The position numbers were made by a program, and so were the translations under genes. Under the pieces are notes generated by a model that did not search any database, was not told the DNA's origin, and saw only the letters and a program-made list of their open reading frames with translations. A stretch of DNA of 64,000 nt from Alligator mississippiensis. Taxonomy: Eukaryota > Chordata > Crocodylia > Alligatoridae. Location of the stretch: assembly GCF_030867095.1 (NCBI RefSeq), contig NC_081831.1, positions 39,865,319 to 39,929,318 of the forward strand. Direction: 5' to 3'. Of this stretch, positions 20,701 through 23,700 are shown piece by piece (position 1 is the first letter of the stretch; each line of letters begins with the position of its first letter).

Positions 20701-23700
20701 AGCAGAAAAAGGAAGGGAGGGAGGGCCTTTTACCTCCTTTATGGATTAAGCAAAGTCTGCCCCAACTGGTAGAGGCAAAATAGGCTAAGGTCAGGGGGTG
20801 AAGCCACCCCTCCAGTGAGAGTTGTTGCTCTCACAAGCACCTTTAGGAAATCCTGGTTGTGCTTCCAAACAAACCCCTTGTGTTCTGTAGACACCACACT
20901 TTACTCCCCTAGAACAGCTGGTACTGCCCCATGTCTAGCTGGGCAGCCCCACTGCACATGAGGGCTGGCAAGGCCAGGCTGTGCCTTCTGCCTCAAACAC
21001 ACTGACTCCTTAGTGACCAGAGGCCTACCAAAAGCCTAACATTTTCAGAAGAGCAAACCTGGGCTCCTCCCCCAGCACTTACCTAGGTGGTAGAGGCCCA
21101 CACAGCACCTCACAGCAGTTCTTCACAATGTTTCCATGGCTGTAGGGATTCTGCACACGGTTCTTCCCAGTCCATGACCCCTTAATCTGAAAGACGAGAA
21201 CACCACCCAAACAGAGCATGAGCTGCCTTTCAGCCTCGGCACCAGTCAGCAGCCTCCACTGACCACCATGAGTATTTTGTCTCTGACTTGCACACACAGC
21301 AGAAGGAGGGGAGTCAGAGGACACTGACATGTCACAACAGGGCCCTATTGTTTCAGTTGACCCTACTTGGCAAGCCTCAGGCTACCTGGTAGCTATCCCT
21401 GTAAGGGATGAAGCAATGGCATGACAGCCACACACTCACCACTTGCACCCCAGGCATGGGAGAGGATAAGGGTCTTGTCTTTATTTTTGCTCCACTGATG
21501 AAGCAGGGACTGTAGGGAGACAATTAGGCTGCTTACATGTATGGAAAAAAAAGGCATTTTACTTTCAGCTCTGCACTTCACTTTTCAGCTTGGTGTAACC
21601 CTGCAACAAGTGCAGCGCATGCCCAGAAGAGGCATTGTGTTAATTTGACATGGCTCACCCAAAATCTATATAGATTGGGCGCTTCAGCAGGGCTTTTTGG
21701 CACTTATTTAATAGCTGACTGAATCGGCTATTAGATAAAAGTGCCAACAAGGCCCGCTGAAGCACCCAATCTATACAGATACTGGGGAGCTGGGTCAAAC
21801 TAACTAACTTCCTCCTCTGGTAAAGTACTGTTGTTCTTTTTATTTTTTCCCACATCTGTTAGCAGCAGTAGTGCTTGTCCAATTCAGGGACTACTTGTAT
21901 TATACTTCAAGCACCTGCGGCAGTACAGAACCAGTGTGGTGCTGGTCTACTCTGGACATACTGCTTACAACAATATGCAACTTCCCTCCACTGTCAACAC
22001 AGAGGACTCTAACTATGAATGAGAACTGGTGAAAGGGGAGCATCAAAAGGGCAAGGGAAGAGGCAGAATGGCACAAAGGGACATCACTCACATCTTCATT
22101 GGTTGTCTGGTTCAGTGCTACCAGGAAGGTGTGGAAGCCAGTTAAACCCACTACTGACCAGAGGGTGAAGAAGCAGATAAGCACTTCCAGGACCGTAAGT
22201 AGCTGGTTAAGGACCCAAAACCCAAAGCACTTTGCCCACCCATGTTCCTGGCAGCTGGCTGCATCCCACGTGATACTATGCACTCCCCTCCCGTGATGCT
22301 GGGGATGAGTGCTGCACTGTGCTCTACCGTCTTTCCAGCTGCATCCCATACTAAAAAAAACAAACAAAAACAAGATTCCACCTTCCTCAAAGGCAGAAAA
22401 GAGGCCCCTTGTGCTTTTGTGCCCCACCCTTCACCCTGTCCCAAGGCAGAAAGGATGAAGCAGGCCTGTCAGCATGGTATAGAAGGATATGTTCCTGGGG
22501 TCTCTTTCAAAGTGTTCAGGAAGCCAATCTTCAAGGACTCTGGGAACACAGAGGGGACAAACAGAAGTTAATCTTCAGAAATCAGTATAAGCCTGGACAA
22601 GTCCCTCCCAGTCAATCCCTGCCCATGTTTGTCAGGCCCCCTGGTTGTCACTAGACCTCCAAAACTGTCCCTATTCTGTAGAGGTGCACCAATACATCAG
22701 TCCAATATTGGACTGGCACCAACATAAAGACAATTGATTGCATCATAAATTGGCCCGATATGGCCAATAATTTGGCTGATAAATGCCCGTGCATGCAAGA
22801 AGCACAGCCCGGCAGCATGGAGAGCTGCATGCAGCTGGTAAGTGACTGACTTAAATAAAGAGGGAAGTCTGGGCAACAGCAACCATGAAACCATCTTGTT
22901 CACTGTCTGATGTAAGGCAAATTGGGTAGCAGGATTGAAGTCCTGGACTTCAAAAATGCAAATTTCAACAAGCTTATGGCACTAGTAGGGCAAGTGCTGC
23001 AGGACCAGGGACTGAAGGTGAAAGGTGTGCATGAAGAGTGGTTGTTCCTTAAGGACATGATCCTTGAAGCACAAAGGAAGTTCATTCCCATGCGGAGAAA
23101 AGGTATCAGAAGGGCTGGGGAGCAGGGAAAACACGGTCCTCTTAAGAAAGAAGAAAGAAGCTTATAAACAATGGAAGCTTGGGGTGGGCCCCAAGGAGGA
23201 CTATTCCACGATGGCTAAAGCAGCGACCATTTGCAGGGAACAGATAAGAAAGGCTAAAGCAGTGAATACACTTAGATTAGCAACAGGAATCAAGGACACC
23301 AAGATGTCCTTCCTTAAGTACATAAGGAACAGGAGGAAAACAAATGGGACTGTAGGGCCATTGCTCAACAACTCAGGAAAGCTGGTTACCGGTACCCAGG
23401 AAAAAGCTGAACTCCTGAACGACTACTTCGCCTTGGTCTTTCACCGGACCAAGGGGAAAACCACGCCAGGTAGAGTAGAGGATGAGCATGGTAGGAATAA
23501 TTGCCTTCATACTATCACCATAGAATTGGTGTATGACCAATTAAAAAAATTAGATGTATACAAATCAGCAGGACTGGATGATCTTCATCTGAGAGTGCTG
23601 AAGGAGCTAGCCAAAGTCATTGGGGAACCCCTGGTGAAACTCTTTCACAACTCATAGCACTCTGGAGAAGTCCCTGAGGACTGGAAGAGGGCCAATGTTG

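Follow-up and report, generated by a model that had tools for sequence, protein, structure and literature searches.

A candidate U12-type AT-AC intron in alligator ZDHHC9 and its counterparts in four sister genes

U12-type introns carry a donor of consensus RTATCCTT and a branch site of consensus TCCTTRAC, and the usual distance between their branch A and the 3' splice site is about 10-20 nt. The closest described system is an intron of fly CG32705 with its human counterpart in ZDHHC8, which Table 2 of PMC2831892 gives as a U12 intron of the GT-AG subtype. Passages of the same paper describe how this intron turned from U12 to U2 twice independently, once in D. ananassae and once in Anopheles gambiae, treat switching from the AT-AC to the GT-AG subtype as known, and quote a GT-AG to AT-AC ratio of 565:204 for U12DB clusters. 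Table 1 of PMC2952598 has CG34449 among the fly U12-intron genes, with ZDHHC8 as the human orthologue; we take CG32705 and CG34449 to be two annotations of a single gene.

ZDHHC9 itself is named in passages of PMC8065453, where a ZDHHC9-GOLGA7 complex is described as regulating NRAS shuttling; these passages do not concern its splicing. According to passages of PMC10705125, retention of the final ZDHHC8 intron is altered in tumours, which does not imply identity with the U12 intron considered here. In literature passages pairing ZDHHC with U12 terms, most of which concern ZDHHC genes other than ZDHHC9, we found no mention of a U12 intron in ZDHHC9, and ZDHHC9 is named with U12 terms in 0 of the matches listed (the best 20 of 72 and the best 20 of 116); catalogues in supplements and databases lie beyond this scope, and absence from print is not claimed. 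Our analysis adds that a predicted intron of this class is common to five sister genes and that its subtype depends on the branch.

The ZDHHC9 gene model

The window, that is, the whole stretch of DNA analysed, spans 64,000 nt (C8:39865319-39929318); searches of the genome covered 2.35 Gb in 195 contigs. ZDHHC9 lies on the minus strand, where eight coding exons were placed in the window. The coding part of exon 1, from the ATG, occupies 55468-55634, followed by exon 2 (31357-31517), exon 3 (29628-29786) and exon 4, which contains the DHHC catalytic motif (25943-26080). Exon 5 (22491-22539) follows a CAG acceptor and has only 49 nt, encoding 15 residues and two bases of a Thr codon. Exon 6 (22092-22194; 103 nt) encodes 34 residues, among them what we take to be the TTxE motif. 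Exon 7 is at 21083-21186 and exon 8 at 19658-19841, the 3' limit of the latter being tentative. An EESSAR-like unit is repeated in the C-terminal tail encoded by exon 8 (19658-19841, minus strand).

The conceptual protein has 355 aa up to the tentative end of exon 8, without a stop, and contains a DHHC domain (PF01529, E 1.2e-37 in a Pfam scan). In a comparison of a 172-aa query of exon pieces with solved structures, human ZDHHC9 (8hf3_A) is the best match at E 4.4e-107, versus 4.4e-23 for ZDHHC5, with ZDHHC14 and ZDHHC18 absent from the listed solved chains and hence outside the comparison. The peptide obtained by joining exons 4-6 (62 aa) aligns without gaps to residues 198-259 of human ZDHHC9 (PDB 8hf3_A, E 1e-33), with 58/62 identical residues by manual count on the alignment. 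The domain and the closest structural match agree with the original prediction in naming the gene ZDHHC9.

Several neighbouring features were observed in the window. Open frames at 23061-24674 (plus strand), within ZDHHC9 intron 4, resemble LINE reverse transcriptase fragments, presumably CR1-like, and a second reverse-transcriptase-like fragment was seen by eye at 33376-33723 (minus strand), within intron 1. An ORF at 7819-8262 (plus strand) resembles, in our assumption, the SH3 region of SASH3, which we take to be a neighbour of ZDHHC9 in human; no Pfam family was found in 73 aa of this ORF.

Anatomy and alternative readings of the intron

Intron 5 of the modelled CDS (22195-22490, minus strand) is a 296-nt U12-type AT-AC intron in phase 2. 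It runs ATATCCTTCT...GGTCCTTAACCAGCTACTTAC, with TCCTTAACCAGCTACTTAC as its last letters. The 5' splice site ATATCCTT (22483-22490) has 0 mismatches to RTATCCTT and the branch site TCCTTAAC (22206-22213) has 0 mismatches to TCCTTRAC. A distance of 12 nt separates the branch A from the 3' splice site, and the terminal AC occupies 22195-22196. Exon 5 (22539-22491) and exon 6 (22194-22092) join in phase 2, splitting the Thr codon, and the terminal AT and AC keep the reading frame. Since AC ends both exon 5 and the intron, sliding the junction by 1 or 2 nt leaves the mRNA unchanged; among the slid readings, only AT-AC has known terminal dinucleotides. The boundaries, donor, branch site, AC end and U12-type AT-AC class are as originally predicted, and so is the restored Pro-Gly-Thr-Val-Leu frame, the phase-2 join matching human ZDHHC9 without a gap. 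The six other modelled ZDHHC9 introns are GT-AG introns with U2-like donors that end in CAG, and they differ from the U12 consensus by 5-6 mismatches at the donor and 2-3 at the branch site. We regard it as close to certain that 22490-22195 is a genuine U12-type AT-AC intron, whose splicing is predicted from these signals.

Neither motif, taken singly, departs far from chance. RTATCCTT has 3 matches in the window against 2.74 expected, and TCCTTAAC has 4 matches against 1.67 expected, with at least 4 in 8/100 shuffles. Finding donor and branch site together at one given exon border has an estimated probability of about 1.6e-8, computed on first-order Markov sequences with RTATCCTT required at the border itself and TCCTTRAC allowed at any of 21 positions. 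One other exact donor/branch pair no more than 10 kb apart exists in the window, at 51573 and 60471 on the plus strand: the donor ATATCCTT and the branch motif TCCTTGAC, followed by TTCCTCAC, are 8898 nt apart. A brief look at its flanks revealed no recognisable exon. The pair lies outside the gene model and is probably due to chance.

An alternative is that the major spliceosome acts at this site, either via a GT-AG pair or by skipping exon 5 to a cryptic AG, with the AT-AC motifs present by coincidence or as relics. The sites enumerated were 12 GT dinucleotides, in the stretch that begins 5 nt within exon 5 and stops 60 nt short of exon 6, and 24 AG dinucleotides. With a minimum spacing of 60 nt these form 128 pairs, and 0/128 join exon 5 to the end of exon 6 open and in frame, which speaks against a U2-type GT-AG intron between these exons. 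Skipping exon 5 onto the normal start of exon 6 breaks the frame. A standard GT-AG gene finder might, as the original prediction has it, miss exon 5 and break the protein, presumably at the fourth membrane segment. The alternative finds some support in eight other AG acceptors, in the interval from 250 nt before to 60 nt after the point where exon 6 starts, that are in frame when exon 5 is skipped; one of them, 22185-22184, would give MAL-MLICFFTL. However, all eight drop exon-5 residues present in human ZDHHC9, and exon-5 skipping is judged unlikely. The original prediction that only these boundaries restore the frame thus stands as long as exon 5 is kept. Given also the low joint chance of the motifs and the conservation of the U12 signals in the paralogues described below, action of the major spliceosome here is very improbable.

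Loss of a normal GT donor through assembly error or gene decay is less probable still. Only one genome was examined, which leaves some room for such an error, but the modelled ZDHHC9 CDS is open and the same AT...AC arrangement occurs at three loci of the genome (ZDHHC9, ZDHHC14 and ZDHHC18). We therefore retain the U12-type AT-AC intron as the preferred reading. If it is retained in the transcript, a stop follows a stretch of 23 residues, so that a retained intron would be expected to truncate the enzyme.

Paralogues and the minor-spliceosome machinery

Searched against the alligator genome, the exon 5-6 peptide hit eight places at E <= 10, of which two are ZDHHC9 itself, four are paralogues and two are weak matches (L015, E 1.2; L016, E 1.8). 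One paralogue is named ZDHHC5 by a 28/28 match to 9oa6, and the others we take to be ZDHHC8, ZDHHC14 and ZDHHC18. With intron boundaries set from motifs and reading frame, a U12-type donor and TTCCTTRAC are found at the same codon and in the same phase 2 as in ZDHHC9 in 4/4 paralogues, and all four have 15 residues from the split codon to G-L-(T/S)-G-F-H, matching ZDHHC9. The introns of ZDHHC14 (7476 nt) and ZDHHC18 (657 nt) are AT-AC, each with donor ATATCCTT and end CAC. Those of ZDHHC8 (3273 nt; donor GTATCCTT) and ZDHHC5 (193 nt; donor GTATCCTC, one mismatch) are GT-AG and end in CAG. The subtype thus follows the branch, with AT-AC in ZDHHC9/14/18 and GT-AG in ZDHHC5/8. A comparison with ZDHHC14 and ZDHHC18, suggested in the original prediction, bears out the AT-AC U12 type at the same codon and phase for both genes of this genome; the ZDHHC9 intron is also U12-type AT-AC as predicted, while being less singular than was implied, as four paralogues share such an intron. 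The base preceding the branch motif is G in ZDHHC9 versus T in the four paralogues, which counts against the model. Among ten further, more distant DHHC loci, of which one (L001) was informative, no U12 branch motif was found near the TTxE exon of that locus.

Rfam matches above the cut-off were found in the genome for U12 (1 place, best score 149.9 bits), U11 (1 place, 112.6), U4atac (1 place, 84.6) and U6atac (4 places, 135), counts that are lower bounds because part of the first-look candidates was scored. The four U6atac matches lie at C12:61674544, C2:196308803, C16:4526420 and C8:17054043, in comparison with one match each for U11, U12 and U4atac; some of them may be retrocopies. In the window itself, an Rfam scan at gathering scores gave 0 matches.

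The roles of U11, U6atac and U12 that we propose here are those of the established minor splicing mechanism. U11 and then U6atac would read the donor ATATCCTT, U12 would pair with TCCTTAAC leaving the branch A bulged out, and the minor spliceosome would ligate ...GGAAC to GGTCCTG..., so that Pro-Gly-Thr-Val-Leu is restored immediately ahead of the last membrane helix. GTAAGGA of the U12 snRNA (positions 18-24) is complementary 7/7 to TCCTTAAC with one A omitted, and AAGGA of U6atac (12-16) is complementary to the donor TCCTT, in a duplex of -7.4 kcal/mol. Two results count against the model. In the lowest-energy duplex of the branch region with U12 (-7.3 kcal/mol), UCCUU stays paired but a small loop forms at the two As, unlike the proposed single bulged A, and pairing of the donor with the 5' end of U11 is modest (-4.0 kcal/mol).

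Origin and comparison with known introns

Because four sister genes have an intron of this class at the same place, the ZDHHC9 intron appears to be old and inherited, as opposed to a peculiarity of this locus. Most likely it is a long-standing minor intron of the group formed by ZDHHC5/8/9/14/18, and as such a typical example of a kind already described. The sequences point to common descent of the five introns: a single intron would have been inherited from the common ancestor of the group, its terminal subtype coming to differ between the two branches. The U12 intron given for fly CG32705 and human ZDHHC8 in PMC2831892, together with the listing of CG34449 in PMC2952598, suggests that the intron of the group probably predates the fly-vertebrate split.

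ZDHHC9 would be expected to be sensitive to minor-spliceosome activity. If splicing of these introns is limiting, minor-spliceosome defects could hit several palmitoyltransferases together. A wider proposal, possible but doubtful in our view, is that all five ZDHHC5/8/9/14/18 genes have preserved one ancestral U12 intron at an unchanged codon since before the fly-vertebrate split, with its subtype fixed by branch, so that a drop in minor-spliceosome activity would lower the whole group. The group provides a natural comparison of AT-AC and GT-AG at one intron position, and the locus illustrates that sequence alone can be enough to recognise a rare intron and assign its type.

Like ZDHHC9, the Drosophila CG32705 (intron 4) and human ZDHHC8 pair has a U12-type intron in a DHHC palmitoyltransferase, there of the sister branch. 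In contrast to the AT-AC intron of ZDHHC9, it is of the GT-AG subtype. In the alligator genome, the ZDHHC8 intron shares both codon and phase with that of ZDHHC9. Set beside AT-AC U12-type introns in general, the ZDHHC9 intron is without visible difference and has the same ATATCCTT donor, TCCTTAAC branch site and AC end, together with their short distance from branch to acceptor.
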